A DNA stretch of 64,000 nt from Chitinophagaceae bacterium (GTDB taxonomy: Bacteria > Bacteroidota > Bacteroidia > Chitinophagales > Chitinophagaceae). The notes below the pieces were generated by a model. The model made no database searches. It was given only the letters and a program-made list of their open reading frames with translations, and was not told where the DNA came from. The stretch lies in assembly GCA_004028795.1 (NCBI GenBank), contig SAIW01000009.1:1-64000 (forward strand), given 5' to 3'. The translations under genes and the position numbers were made by a program. Positions 13,051-18,343 of the stretch are shown piece by piece; the stretch's first letter is position 1; every line of letters starts with the position of its first letter.

Positions 13051-13051
13051 A

Positions 13052-13088
13052 CCTCGGTAGCCGAAAAGAGGATTATAGAGTAGGCAAA
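13052..13088 (+). promoter_or_regulatory. Conserved leader element, copy 1 (before DNase II)
   Basis: CCTCGGTAGCCGAAAAGAGG followed by ATTATAGAGTAGGCAA, ending 11 bases before the DNase II ATG. The same element precedes the haem lipoprotein gene at 15082. It can form a hairpin (CCT/AGG outer, CGG/CCG inner with an A-rich bulge). Close placement before the start codon suggests a 5'-UTR or operator function; the mechanism is unknown. Confidence 0.6.
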
Positions 13089-13099
13089 AATGAAATAAT

Positions 13100-14281
13100 A
13101 TGAAAATATCCGCTTTAAATGAACAAGGCAAACCGGTTGACTGGTGGTTTATGTATAAAGTACCACAATTAAACGGTGGAGGTGTTGGAATAGATAACGC
13201 TACAGGTTATGAGTATATTTATTATGATTCTGAAATTGATAAAAGCACCGATATCAAGAAAAAAACACAACTAAAATCTCCCTTTGTAATAGATAAAGGA
13301 GAAGGTGCATTGAACTTAACATTAGATTCTGTATTTAAACAAGCAAAACCTGCTTCTAAAACTACAGGCTGGATACTCTACAATGATGAGATGCCTGCAA
13401 GCACCAAATTAAAAGACAATGCACACTTAGGGCACACTAAAGGAGTAATAGCTTTTGATACAAAAACCGAAACAGCTTACTGGTTACTACATTCCTGGCC
13501 AAAGTTTGCAGAACCAAATGCAGAACATGACCCTACACCAAAATATGGTCAAACTTATATGTGTATTTCTTTAGACATTGATACAGCAAGAAAGATTGCC
13601 AATCAAATGGTAAATCATCAAGAACCACAAGTTTATTTTCCCAATACTGCCGACTTAACAAAAGATGATGATTTGTTTAAACTAACTCAACCCATTGACT
13701 TTAATGCTACTGCCGATTCAGATGTTTTAGAATTAAGTACAATTGGAGGCATGCCTTTTAAAGTAATTGCAAAAAACCAACTATGGAACAAAGATTTCTG
13801 GAACGATTTAGTTGGCCCTACATTAAAAGATGATATGGATGTTGAAACATGGATTAGAGGCCCAATTGCACCGATAGCTGATAGCGATGGTATTCATAAA
13901 ACATTCGATATAAAATACATTAATCTTGGCCCGCTGGGAACACATTGGGCATGGCCGGAAACGCATGACCATGCAAAATGGGGTATTACACTTAATAATC
14001 CCTGGGTATGTGTGGGAGATATTAATAGAATGATATCTCAACGTAAAAGAGGTGGATGCACCATAGCTTTTCAGAATAAAAACTTATGGCAAGGGCTATC
14101 TAAATCCGGTTTATTACTTGCCCCTCCGGGACATACCAGAACCCAAGCTCATCAAATAATAGCAAATACACATAACCATGAGGCAGAGGCACCTGTAAAA
14201 ACTAAGGTAAAGAACTCTGTATCTAAAAAAACTATTGCAAAAAAAGCAGCAACTAAAACTGCTAAAAAATCAAGTAAATAA
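13100..14281 (+). CDS. Bacterial DNase II family protein with lysine-rich tail
   Basis: 393 residues. Clear similarity to acid DNase II: VDWWFMYKVPQ at the N-terminus, GWILYNDEMP at ~90, GHTKGVIAFD with the first catalytic HxK (His112, Lys114), YWLLHSWPKF, YGQTYMCISL, then the second HxK in DHAKWGI (His291, Lys293) and PWVCVGDINR plus RKRGG. In animals the enzyme cleaves DNA without metal in lysosomes. Here there is no signal peptide, and residues ~365-393 form a Lys/Ala/Thr tail like bacterial histone H1, which may bind DNA. A DUF2278 gene follows after 24 bases, probably in the same transcript. The biological target is unknown. Confidence 0.85.
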   Translation: MKISALNEQGKPVDWWFMYKVPQLNGGGVGIDNATGYEYIYYDSEIDKSTDIKKKTQLKSPFVIDKGEGALNLTLDSVFKQAKPASKTTGWILYNDEMPASTKLKDNAHLGHTKGVIAFDTKTETAYWLLHSWPKFAEPNAEHDPTPKYGQTYMCISLDIDTARKIANQMVNHQEPQVYFPNTADLTKDDDLFKLTQPIDFNATADSDVLELSTIGGMPFKVIAKNQLWNKDFWNDLVGPTLKDDMDVETWIRGPIAPIADSDGIHKTFDIKYINLGPLGTHWAWPETHDHAKWGITLNNPWVCVGDINRMISQRKRGGCTIAFQNKNLWQGLSKSGLLLAPPGHTRTQAHQIIANTHNHEAEAPVKTKVKNSVSKKTIAKKAATKTAKKSSK

Positions 14282-14305
14282 TTCTTTAGGAATAAATAAG
14301 TAAAA

Positions 14306-15034
14306 ATGTCGAATCATCATCAAAACAAAAGAAAATTTGGAACAAATAAAAACAATTCCAACAGAGGAAATTTTCCTATACCCAATCGTGCAGGTAACGA
14401 TATAAATTACCATGTATTAAGATGCCGACCTGTTATTACCAAAAGCAGCCCGCAAAACCAACATGACCATTTACAGGTATTAGTAGAAATTGAATCCGGA
14501 ACAAGATTCTGGATGACCATTAATTCAAGAAGTGGTAACCAAAGCGATAAAGTTTTATTTAATGTAAATACTAATTACGAAAATCCTATTGTACAAAAAT
14601 TAGCAAGTGCTCAATTGCCCGATGGATTTACTGCTTTAGAAAAAAAGCCGGATGGATTAGCATTAGATTATCAGAAAATGAACTTAGTTGATATGAATAG
14701 CTTTCAATTGGTAACAGAAGGGGTAGATTCCGAAACCTCAGACATTGAACAAATGTTGACCACTGAAATCATTAATGCTTCAAGACACCCAGATGCTAAA
14801 ATGTATGTGTTTGGCTCAATGTTTACAGACGGAGAAAGATTCAGTTCTTACCATTTAGCAACCGGCATTCATGATATTCACATGAACCAAGGCAGCCAAC
14901 CTCCGCATACCCAGAGCAATGGAACTTATCAGGATGGGGCCTTATTCATTCATTACAGAGCCGAGAACATTTGGACTGCCATCTTTATGAAGTTTGAAAG
15001 CCAGAATAATAACACCGATGCAAACGGCAACTAA
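14306..15034 (+). CDS. DUF2278 family protein
   Basis: 242 residues. The order YHVLRCRPV, TRFWMTINSRSG, ENPIVQKLASAQLPDGFTAL, GLALDYQ, DAKMYVFGSMF, GIHDIHMNQGS, QDGALFIHYRAENIWTAIFMKF matches the uncharacterised DUF2278 (YukJ-like) family along its length. The first 28 residues are Asn/His/Lys-rich and probably disordered. No signal peptide. It sits 24 bases behind DNase II, so the two are probably co-expressed. The biochemical role of this family is not known to me; the conserved HDIHMNQG could be a metal or substrate site (inference). Confidence 0.85.
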   Translation: MSNHHQNKRKFGTNKNNSNRGNFPIPNRAGNDINYHVLRCRPVITKSSPQNQHDHLQVLVEIESGTRFWMTINSRSGNQSDKVLFNVNTNYENPIVQKLASAQLPDGFTALEKKPDGLALDYQKMNLVDMNSFQLVTEGVDSETSDIEQMLTTEIINASRHPDAKMYVFGSMFTDGERFSSYHLATGIHDIHMNQGSQPPHTQSNGTYQDGALFIHYRAENIWTAIFMKFESQNNNTDANGN

Positions 15035-15081
15035 TTGAAAAACCACTTAACCACACCCTTTTATTAATTGAAAAATATTAA

Positions 15082-15117
15082 CCTCGGTAGCCGAAAAGAG
15101 GAACTAGAGTAGGCAAG
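15082..15117 (+). promoter_or_regulatory. Conserved leader element, copy 2 (before haem lipoprotein)
   Basis: CCTCGGTAGCCGAAAAGAGG followed by AACTAGAGTAGGCAA, ending 13 bases before the ATG at 15131. Apart from a 2-3 base difference in the centre it is identical to copy 1 at 13052, although the surrounding sequence is unrelated, so the element itself is conserved. Confidence 0.6.
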
Positions 15118-15130
15118 AAAATTTATCAAT

Positions 15131-16477
15131 ATGAGAAAAAAGTTTTTAACACTAGGGATGATTGTAATTGCTGTATTCATTGCTGTTGCCTTTATTACGC
15201 AAGGGTGTTCATTAAACAAGGTTGAAGCAAGAATAAGCAATAAAGACGCAATACTGCCATCGGATATCATAGGAAATGCACAGCCAGTAGCCGATACATT
15301 TTCTTGGAAAACTTTTATCGCAATGAATTGGCCGGCCAATAATAATCAATGTGGCCCTGATACCACTAATGGAACTACTATTCTTACCGGAAAAGGCCCC
15401 GTGGTTTGGGAAACTTATCTTTCCAGCGATCAAGTTTTTGTTGCACCCCCTGCAAGCCCTGACAAGTGGCCATGTAATGCAGATAAAATCGGTACGTACT
15501 TTAGCCGCCTCCCTAAAGATATTCAGGAGCTTGCTAAAAAAACAGGTGTTTATCGCTTCATTCATAGCACTTCAAAATCTCCTACTAATCTAGATCAAGC
15601 ATCAGGAGGGCCTTTGGTAGATCAGAACGGCCGTTTTGTGAGATATGAGGTTCGCATGAATCAAGATGAATATAATTATATTATAAAAGATACTTTATGG
15701 AATACACAAGGCCAAATAGCATTTACCAAAAGCGGGCAAACAATAGCTTTTCCGGCAGGGCAAACAGCCTATGGAGCTAATGGTGCTATGGAGTTTAAGG
15801 CTGCTTGGAAAGTGCTTGGGAAAAATGATGATTCTACTAAGTTCTATACTATCAGAGCTATTGTTTTTAATGACGACTCGTTGCAGGTAAGTCCCGGGCC
15901 AAATCCTGTAACACTCGGCCTTGTTGGATTACACATTGCACATAAAACAGCTAATCAAAAGAACTGGGTTTGGTCAACGTTTGAACAGGTAGATAATCTT
16001 ACAAAATCATTTTATGATTCTTCTTGCAAAAATTGTCCGGTTAACCAGCCTTTAAAAGGAAAAAATTTTAAAGAACTGAATGCCGATGGCTCCCCAATTC
16101 ATAAACCCACACAGGTAACACGGGTAAACCCCATAGAAAATTCGAACGACAGCTTAAACTTGTATTTTCAATCTCTTTTAAAAGGATCGGTTTGGGCAAA
16201 CTATAAATTAGTAAGTACACAATGGCTATTATTTGCTGATATGACACCCAAATTTCTTGCGAATACTGTTCAAGAAACTTACCTGCAAGGTCCTCATCCT
16301 GCCTCCATTGGTTTTAAGTTCCCCGGCGGTGATGGTAGGCAATATTTTCAAGATACAGCTTATCACCCTTTTTCAAATGTTGTTAGTTCAAGTTGCATGG
16401 GATGTCATTATCAAGCAACACTTTCAAAATCAAATGCAAAATCCGACTTTAGTTTCCTTTTAGGTGATGCACATTAA
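15131..16477 (+). CDS. Monohaem c-type cytochrome-like lipoprotein
   Basis: 448 residues. The N-terminal hydrophobic segment ends in ITQGCS, a lipoprotein box, so the protein is probably lipid-anchored outside the cytoplasm. Near the C-terminus a CMGCH motif marks a single covalent haem c site. FSWKTFIAMNWPANN and GPVVWETYLSS are typical of an uncharacterised cytochrome-like family also seen in Proteobacteria; LVSTQWL and HPASIGFKFPGGDG are further conserved-looking parts. Two extra Cys occur in CKNCP near 300. The gene has its own copy of the leader element found before DNase II, which suggests shared control. Electron-transfer partner unknown. Confidence 0.75.
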   Translation: MRKKFLTLGMIVIAVFIAVAFITQGCSLNKVEARISNKDAILPSDIIGNAQPVADTFSWKTFIAMNWPANNNQCGPDTTNGTTILTGKGPVVWETYLSSDQVFVAPPASPDKWPCNADKIGTYFSRLPKDIQELAKKTGVYRFIHSTSKSPTNLDQASGGPLVDQNGRFVRYEVRMNQDEYNYIIKDTLWNTQGQIAFTKSGQTIAFPAGQTAYGANGAMEFKAAWKVLGKNDDSTKFYTIRAIVFNDDSLQVSPGPNPVTLGLVGLHIAHKTANQKNWVWSTFEQVDNLTKSFYDSSCKNCPVNQPLKGKNFKELNADGSPIHKPTQVTRVNPIENSNDSLNLYFQSLLKGSVWANYKLVSTQWLLFADMTPKFLANTVQETYLQGPHPASIGFKFPGGDGRQYFQDTAYHPFSNVVSSSCMGCHYQATLSKSNAKSDFSFLLGDAH

Positions 16478-16538: not shown

Positions 16539-16579
16539 AACCTCCTTTGCTTTTTAATGAAAGTAAAGGAGGTTTTTTA
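16539..16579 (+). terminator. Terminator after the haem lipoprotein
   Basis: AACCTCCTTTGCTTT/AAAGTAAAGGAGGTT stem with one mismatch and a 6-base loop, followed by TTTT. Confidence 0.8.
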
Positions 16580-16625: not shown

Positions 16626-16726
16626 TTTTGTTAATTACTTACACTTACTTTTATTTTTCTATACATAGCTATAGCACTGTACATTTATTATTATTTTACA
16701 GGTTTTAATTGCTTAACCAAATACCC

Positions 16727-18343
16727 ATGAACCATTTGTATTTTGGCGACTGCTTAGATGTGTTGAAAGAACTGAAAACACAGTATCCGCAGCCTTTTAT
16801 AGATTTAATTTATATAGACCCTCCGTTTAACAGCAAACGCAATTACAATGTATTGTTTGAAAGTATGGATATGAAAGATGCCAATGCACAAAAGCAGGCA
16901 TTTGCCGATACATGGAGTAATTATAACTATGTAGATACGCTGAACGAAATTGCCGATATAGATAAAGAACTCTACACCATATTAAACACATTTCATAATT
17001 TAAAAAGCATTAGCGATAGTGCTGTTGCTTACCTAACCACCATGGCCATACGCATTTGGTACATGCATAAATTATTAAAAGATACAGGCAGTTTTTATTT
17101 GCATTGCGATAGCACCATGAGCCATTATTTGAAATTGATTTGTGATATGATTTTTGGAGAGAAGAATCATCAAAATGAAATTAGCTGGAAAAGAACTAGT
17201 GCACACAGCGATGCAAAAAAATATTCAAGAGTTACTGATAAAATTTTGTTTTACTCAAAGTCAAATAAATATACTTGGAACGAAATGAAAGTCGGTTATG
17301 ATGAAAGCTATATTAAATCTCATTATAGACACAAAGATGAAAACGGAAGAATATTTAGAACTGACAATTTAACCGCAACAGGATTGTCTGGGGGAGGTTA
17401 TCAATATGAATGGAATGGAGTCAGTAAAATTTGGAGATGCCCAATTGAGAAAATGCAACAACTTCATAATGAGAATAGAATTCATTATACAAAAAATAAC
17501 ACAGCAGAATTAAAAAGATTTCTTGACGAAATGGAAGGAACAATCATTACAGATAATTGGAATGATATTTCACCATTAAACTCTCAAGCTAAAGAACGCC
17601 TTGGTTACCCCACACAAAAACCTGAAGCCTTATTAGAACGCATTATAAAAGCCAGCAGTAACGAGGGAGATGTAGTGGCAGATTTCTTTTGCGGTTGTGG
17701 TACTACCATTGCGGCTGCACAAAAACTCAACCGTAAATGGTTGGGTGCAGATATTAGTCATTTGGCTATTCGTTTAATTAAAAAACGTTTGGTAGAAACT
17801 TATGGTAAGGGCATAGAGCATAATTTAAAATTACATGGTATGCCTAAAGATATTGCCAGTGCTAAAGAGTTGGCACAAAATGTAGAAGGTGGCAGAATTG
17901 GCTTTCAGGATTGGGCAATAGAAGTAATGTTGAACGGTGTGGTAAATGAAAAGAAAGTAGCAGATGGAGGTTACGATGGTTACTTAACTTTTAAAGGTGC
18001 AGATGGCACAAAACAATTTGCATTAATAGAAACAAAAAGCGGTAAGCTTACAGTAAAGAATATGAGAGAGTTTGCAAGAGTAATTGATAATGAAAAAGCA
18101 GCCGTAGGCATATTTGTTTGCTTTAAAGAAAATGTAACCAGTGAAATGATTAAAGAAGCCAAGAATGCTGGGCATATAAAAATTGCAGGTATTGAGTTTC
18201 CGCAGGATAAAATACAGATTATAACCGCAGAAGATTTGTTTGAAGGCAAGCAACCGCAACTACCCGGTGCTGCTGCTAATGATACGTTTAAAAAAGCTCA
18301 ACGAAACGAAAGCAAAAGTGTAAGTAAAGGCTTGTTTGATTAG
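16727..18343 (+). CDS. DNA methyltransferase fused to a PD-(D/E)xK nuclease-like domain
   Basis: 538 residues from ATG 16727 (MNHLYFGDCLDVLKEL), preferred over a TTG six codons upstream. The N-terminal part is an amino-methyltransferase of the N6-adenine/N4-cytosine group: DPPF at residues 31-34 precedes the AdoMet motif DFFCGCGTT at 319-327, the beta-class order. A middle insert (about 130-290) is likely the target recognition region. Residues ~390-510 resemble the Mrr-like domain found at the end of similar proteins: GYDGYL with Asp417 and LIETKSGK with Glu435/Lys437 fit a D...ExK nuclease site. No separate restriction or specificity gene adjoins, so it may be a self-contained type IIG-like system or a methylase with a regulatory domain. 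Confidence 0.88.
   Translation: MNHLYFGDCLDVLKELKTQYPQPFIDLIYIDPPFNSKRNYNVLFESMDMKDANAQKQAFADTWSNYNYVDTLNEIADIDKELYTILNTFHNLKSISDSAVAYLTTMAIRIWYMHKLLKDTGSFYLHCDSTMSHYLKLICDMIFGEKNHQNEISWKRTSAHSDAKKYSRVTDKILFYSKSNKYTWNEMKVGYDESYIKSHYRHKDENGRIFRTDNLTATGLSGGGYQYEWNGVSKIWRCPIEKMQQLHNENRIHYTKNNTAELKRFLDEMEGTIITDNWNDISPLNSQAKERLGYPTQKPEALLERIIKASSNEGDVVADFFCGCGTTIAAAQKLNRKWLGADISHLAIRLIKKRLVETYGKGIEHNLKLHGMPKDIASAKELAQNVEGGRIGFQDWAIEVMLNGVVNEKKVADGGYDGYLTFKGADGTKQFALIETKSGKLTVKNMREFARVIDNEKAAVGIFVCFKENVTSEMIKEAKNAGHIKIAGIEFPQDKIQIITAEDLFEGKQPQLPGAAANDTFKKAQRNESKSVSKGLFD

Follow-up and report, generated by a model that had tools for sequence, protein, structure and literature searches.

We describe a cluster of three genes and two leader RNAs in a 64,000-nucleotide (nt) window, the whole stretch of DNA analyzed, which is the start of one contig of a Chitinophagaceae bacterium genome (3.43 Mb, 26 contigs). 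Open reading frames (ORFs) for an animal-type DNase II, a DUF2278 protein, and a monohaem lipoprotein (CMGCH) lie on the + strand in that order, as a preliminary description of this DNA had named them. The reading we favor, with somewhat more confidence than doubt, is that DNase II with DUF2278 forms one unit of transcription or translation and the haem lipoprotein a second, each headed by a DUF805b RNA, that the shared leader sets both, and that acquired genes came under a locally copied leader. From the sequences, co-regulation of the two units is likely. The analysis contributes a covariation-supported pseudoknot, a survey of DUF805b targets, and the pairing of DNase II with haem lipoproteins, and the RNA regulon is its most interesting part.

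RF02914 is the Rfam DUF805b RNA (clan CL00115), a catalogued candidate cis-regulator whose function is unexplained. Leader 1 (13051..13086, +; cmscan 39.8 bits, E 8.6e-08) and leader 2 (15081..15115, +; 36.8 bits, E 9e-07) both exceed the gathering score of 35.6 over the full model length (1-35), and a 23-nt block that includes the P1 arms CCUC/GAGG is identical between them. The alignment gives both a P1 hairpin with a conserved loop and GAGUAGG downstream, and each is followed by a coding gene with the same orientation. From the end of GUAGG, the AUG follows after 15 nt for DNase II (13100..14281, +; 393 amino acids [aa]; PF03265, E 1.8e-73) and after 17 nt for the haem lipoprotein (15131..16477, +; 448 aa, with one C-terminal haem c site, from ORF and motif). 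The DUF2278 gene (14306..15034, +; 242 aa; PF10042, E 1.7e-51) begins 24 nt past DNase II and, because of this short gap, is probably on the same transcript. The preliminary description had seen a near-identical leader before two of the three genes and taken it to suggest coordinated expression; that argument is upheld because near-identical leaders of a catalogued cis-regulatory family stand on both units, and such coordination would be expected from the sequence.

Four RF02914 matches over the gathering score occur in the whole genome, two of them at this cluster, and a fifth, of 23.3 bits, has the same architecture. The two leaders lie 2.03 kb apart; in simulation, the chance that two of four random sites fall within 2030 nt was 0.0075. 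Among the 116 aligned copies, the P1 arm CCUC/GAGG was found in no others. Because of this close spacing, the identical 23-nt block, and the private P1 arm, the leader was likely duplicated by a local copy event. Across same-family genomes, RF02914 matched at E<=0.001 in 114 of 147 (76 over the gathering score), compared with none of 14 control genomes. No paper on DUF805b, DUF2278, or DUF6520 was found in a literature that omits most subscription journals; eight papers there contain the term DUF805, none of them devoted to the RNA judging by their titles.

Covariation indicates that the DUF805b RNA family folds as an H-type pseudoknot with a P1 of 4 base pairs and a P2 of 3; in leader 1 these are CCUC/GAGG and GCC/GGC. 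We examined 114 loci from the 147 same-family genomes, all except L006 entering through matches over the gathering score. The first motif pattern gave sites in 106 loci, and the remaining eight carry variants. Alignment A3 (106 rows) excludes a spurious site (L253 at 2566) and identical cores, alignment A7 (116 rows) adds the variants, and both were tested against the named structure. Of 794 pair cells, 97.1% hold standard pairs, compared with 71.2 on average after shuffling and with none of 500 shuffles as high, a significance inflated by related rows and obtained for a structure derived from the same sequences. P2 alone reaches 98.3% (shuffled, 90.6; 0/500 as high), and sliding the pairing partner lowers standard pairing to <=49.1%. 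Compensatory changes on both sides occur at all 4 P1 pairs and at 2 of 3 P2 pairs (A7). The outer P2 pair is seen as GC, UA, AU, CG, and GU and the inner one as CG, UA, and UG; in the variant rows, the partner of GCU is GGC or GGU in 4 rows and AGC in 5, with one mismatch. The bases before CCGAAA and after GUAGG form Watson-Crick pairs in 93 of 108 distinct sites and GU in 9; 20,000 shuffles averaged 66.5 and did not exceed 79. Since several pair types appear across unrelated genera and among paralogues within one genome, real pairing is the simplest reading of these alignments. The cmscan structure line of RF02914 contains P1 only, and covariance models cannot represent pseudoknots; P2 and the regulon come from the present alignment and target survey.

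An ATG-started ORF lies downstream at 102 of 108 sites, and for 97 distinct targets of >=50 aa the gap from GUAGG to AUG has a median of 24 nt, with 81 of the 97 between 17 and 35 nt. The targets, sampled from high-scoring sites that may not represent all, are mostly short, lineage-specific genes (57/97 below 150 aa). By a home-made rule, signal-peptide-like N termini occur in 55 of 97 targets versus 73 of 188 other ORFs of >=100 aa at the same loci (Fisher p 0.0056), and in 37 of 61 targets of >=100 aa (p 0.0046). Among 98 targets scanned, at least 27 Pfam families are represented, of which DUF6520 is the commonest (11), followed by GEVED (3), mannan-binding lectin (2), and rhodopsin (2, near-identical genes in two sister genomes); DUF1842, DUF2589, beta/gamma crystallin, and peptidase inhibitor I36 are among the families with a single target. 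Two targets match the class I lanthipeptide leader and one matches TIGR04149. A broader proposal, which we think rather unlikely as a whole, is that DUF805b acts as a pseudoknotted RNA switch for a dispersed regulon in these Bacteroidota, made up of lineage-specific products that are released or surface-located: short exported proteins, lanthipeptide-type precursors, lectin-like and crystallin-like proteins, the nuclease, and haem lipoproteins. DNase II and the monohaem lipoprotein would then be a recurrent module that degrades DNA during lysis or antagonism, coupled to extracellular redox chemistry. DUF805b copies also occur in tandem or locally clustered (two at L178, 43 nt apart; three in ~320 nt at L250; two each at L197 and L231), and one 3.5-Mb genome (G411) has 22 matches at E<=0.001, several ahead of large exported GEVED-type proteins.

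The pairing of DNase II with haem lipoproteins recurs elsewhere. We collected 83 other DNase II loci, namely, the best 80 of 99 bacterial relatives and three from a phylum search; L016 possibly duplicates a species among L073-L078, its haem protein being 98% identical to that of L074. The window haem family lies near DNase II at L065, together with a GMC oxidoreductase. At L286, a DNase II gene (PF03265, E 5.8e-20) lies 159 nt downstream of a gene of the window haem family, and its product carries both HxK motifs and a Lys-rich tail. Immediately ahead of DNase II at 8 loci, most of them from one lineage, is a second haem-lipoprotein family; hhalign gives a possible relationship between the two families a probability of 60% (P 8.8e-05). 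Expected chance counts are ~0.01 for the haem family near DNase II (~1.16 Mb searched) and ~0.001 for DNase II near the haem family (~0.27 Mb searched), rough values that use phylum densities and assume ~4 Mb per genome; the regions in the 0.27 Mb were chosen for the haem family, and the L286 genome also for holding both haem families. On these sequences, the pairing is weakly to moderately supported. Supporting a link to the RNA, a DUF805b-like leader stands directly before an operon of a 712-aa gene and a gene of the window haem family at L292.

Several observations weigh against our reading of the cluster. In the 18 kb searched at L292, that leader is the sole match at E<=0.5, with a score of 21.3 bits, below the 35.6 cut-off; a search of four other haem regions (L286, L287, L289, and L293) returned no DUF805b match. 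Of the 83 other DNase II loci, just L065 has the haem family nearby, and of 15 haem-family regions, just L286 has DNase II nearby. Conservation of the leader with DNase II, raised in the preliminary description, was not borne out: within 1 kb upstream, it stands directly ahead of none of the other DNase II genes (83 ORFs or pieces at 82 loci, the L087 gene having been missed by the ORF caller and the L018 gene, split by a TAG, counting as two pieces), in agreement with the upstream sequences of 34 relatives. The small GC excess of the cluster genes (0.36-0.39, window 0.35) does not prove transfer. The Bacteroidota-type promoter TAnn(n)TTTG occurs upstream of 15 of 105 leaders versus a shuffled mean of 14.0, and with no excess this motif does not place the transcript start. 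Finally, DUF2278 is near none of the 83 other DNase II loci (52 with full 8-kb flanks) and absent from the other haem-family regions. DUF2278 thus fails the co-occurrence test that the preliminary description had set, and with no conserved DUF2278 link, the idea that DNase II, DUF2278, and the haem lipoprotein make up one system is not supported and is rejected as regards DUF2278; of the preliminary interpretation, the shared regulatory leader survives, along with the recurrence of DNase II beside a monohaem lipoprotein.

It is possible, and in our judgment doubtful, that the three genes are ordinary neighbors without a shared function and that DUF805b is a general expression element on many accessory genes. 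The diversity of the targets fits this, as do the absence of DUF2278 from the other DNase II and haem-family regions and the failure to find the three-gene set at any other DNase II locus. On the other side, the DNase II-haem lipoprotein pairing repeats, the L292 operon of the haem family also has a DUF805b-like leader, and the two leaders here are nearly identical and head adjoining units.

If the two units are indeed set by their shared leader, the pseudoknot would sit at the upstream edge of the initiating ribosome footprint and could set translation, or RNA stability, of both upon one trans signal, so that the nuclease and haem protein would be made together. The genes may have been acquired horizontally and then placed under the locally copied leader. 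The cassette DNA is missing from the 3 congeners examined, which have leader-like stretches (79-85% identical) at other genomic places. DNase II is sporadic (4/395 phylum genomes, 2/195 family genomes), and haem lipoprotein relatives occur in 13 of 395 phylum genomes and, by profile search, 15 of 227 class genomes, the window's own included in both counts. DNase II might leave the cell by lysis or another route and act on released DNA, and the lipoprotein might be a haem protein of the envelope, active in electron transfer or in handling peroxide. For the orphan regulatory RNA DUF805b, the pseudoknot and ~100 targets make its signal a testable question. If the leaders answer one signal, a common trigger would link the animal-type DNase II to the haem protein of the envelope, a first functional handle on both.

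An accessory-enzyme role is suggested because the genes around DNase II and haem relatives include those of accessory oxidases and hydrolases (LodA-type amino-acid oxidase, tyrosinase, GMC oxidoreductase, and PF04185 phosphoesterase). At L288, the haem gene is beside LodA (PF17990, PF18417), a LodB-like flavoprotein, and a tyrosinase, and a LodA-like and flavoprotein cluster recurs at L298 by sequence similarity (Pfam checked for L288 only). PF04185 is near DNase II at Flavobacterium-type loci, with a haem lipoprotein also nearby, and at marine gammaproteobacterial loci. According to PMC4417212, LodA-type enzymes release hydrogen peroxide and have roles in biofilm cell death and dispersal. Based on these biofilm roles and on animal DNase II chemistry, we infer that the cluster may be part of an accessory-enzyme guild that operates around lysis, biofilms, or competition. 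The likeness to the LodA/LodB clusters of that source lies in the neighbors at L288; the window cluster, in contrast, has no oxidase gene, and cytochromes and DNase have 0 occurrences in the text of PMC4417212. A neighbor at L141 considered as LodA was dropped, having no Pfam or PDB match. At L136 and L140, haem genes have DUF1842-type neighbors with 44-49% identity to a DUF805b target.

It is very unlikely that the leader is a DNA element, such as an alternative-sigma promoter or a protein-binding site, instead of an RNA. No housekeeping-type promoter stands out upstream, and the two conserved blocks are laid out like a bipartite promoter; however, their spacing varies (CCGAAA to GAGTAGG spans 16-28 nt), and the P1 arms and crossing P2 change freely yet stay complementary, which is not required of a promoter or protein site. 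We likewise find it highly improbable that the cluster is a defense or self-destruction unit, with a self-targeting DNase II checked by a partner and the adjacent DNA methyltransferase as modification partner: the putatively metal-independent nuclease with its basic tail and the Mrr-like C terminus of the methyltransferase would suit such a unit, but the three genes have no PADLOC match at E 0.1 (the methyltransferase matches MTase models), a terminator separates it from the cluster, no small immunity gene lies beside DNase II, and no defense genes were recognized around the relatives, where the PADLOC scan was not applied.

The window DNase II scores 248 bits against a PF03265 cut-off of 23, and both HxK motifs are intact, as previously described (H112-x-K114, H291-x-K293). 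Two such motifs are the PLD signature, named in a reference of PMC11430429. In that source, animal DNase II, as distinct from the window protein, works at acid pH and needs no divalent ions; by analogy, the window protein may be a metal-independent acid nuclease. It matches Burkholderia-type bacterial DNase II (PDB 5i3e, 5unb) at E 3e-135 over residues 1-359 with both HxK regions aligned, and differs in its DUF805b leader and a Lys-rich C-terminal tail, the latter carried by 11 of the 84 DNase II ORFs or pieces compared, the window's included, a count that likewise covers 82 of the 83 other loci. This tail is histone-H1-like (window 14150-14281) and also occurs at L049, L054, L057, L058, L061, and L065 and, in addition to that count, at L286. 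The preliminary description had stressed a missing signal peptide. None is visible by sequence inspection, and this is not special to the window copy because it is usual among bacterial DNase II ORFs: only 4 of the 80 in which a VDWWF-like motif was found have >35 residues ahead of it, with lengths measured in ORFs called from the earliest start available. A candidate leader at L049 was rejected, as the DUF805b lies 879 nt upstream of DNase II, ahead of a 142-aa gene. Neighbors of Algoriphagus-type DNase II genes include what we take, by eye, to be gshB-like and gshA-like genes. A conserved cluster of DNase II with a giant protein kinase-AAA-GAF-guanylate cyclase (~1700-1800 aa where complete) was seen in Algoriphagus-type bacteria and marine gammaproteobacteria (L113, L114, L117-L121, L124, and L125; L096, L097, L101, L102, L105, and L107).

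The haem lipoprotein family was present in 15 of 16 regions fetched, and all 12 aligned relatives keep the lipobox Cys26 and C422-x-x-C425-H426 unchanged. No Pfam family matched the protein at E 0.001. Its predicted structure (mean predicted local distance difference test [pLDDT] 55.0, predicted template modeling score 0.66) had no Foldseek match in the PDB at E<=0.001; the family alignment matched no PDB sequence at E 1, and the single protein gave only chance-level matches. Membership in cytochrome P460 (PF16694) was rejected, with 0 of 12 family members matching at E<=1; in the second haem-lipoprotein family, 5 of 8 members match PF16694 weakly (best E 4.8e-07). Both families occur in one region at L284; the same region encodes a phosphorylase-like protein whose relatives are found next to DNase II at other loci.

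The DUF2278 protein scores 175.5 bits against a cut-off of 25, its predicted structure is too poor to use (mean pLDDT 43.7), and the gene may simply ride along in the cluster. The terminator scan listed no + strand terminator-like sites between the cluster genes, a weak one inside the DNase II gene (13132-13145), and a strong intrinsic terminator with a 16-pair stem and T-run at the end of the cluster (16539..16574, +). Upstream, a gap of ~670 nt extends to an opposite-strand gene, which from its sequence we take by eye to be glutamine-synthetase-like. Directly past the terminator lies the DNA methyltransferase (PF01555) with a C-terminal Mrr-like domain (16709-18343). Between leader 1 and the DNase II start is a two-codon ORF (ATG AAA TAA, window 13090-13098), and leader L003 has a three-codon ORF that resembles it.

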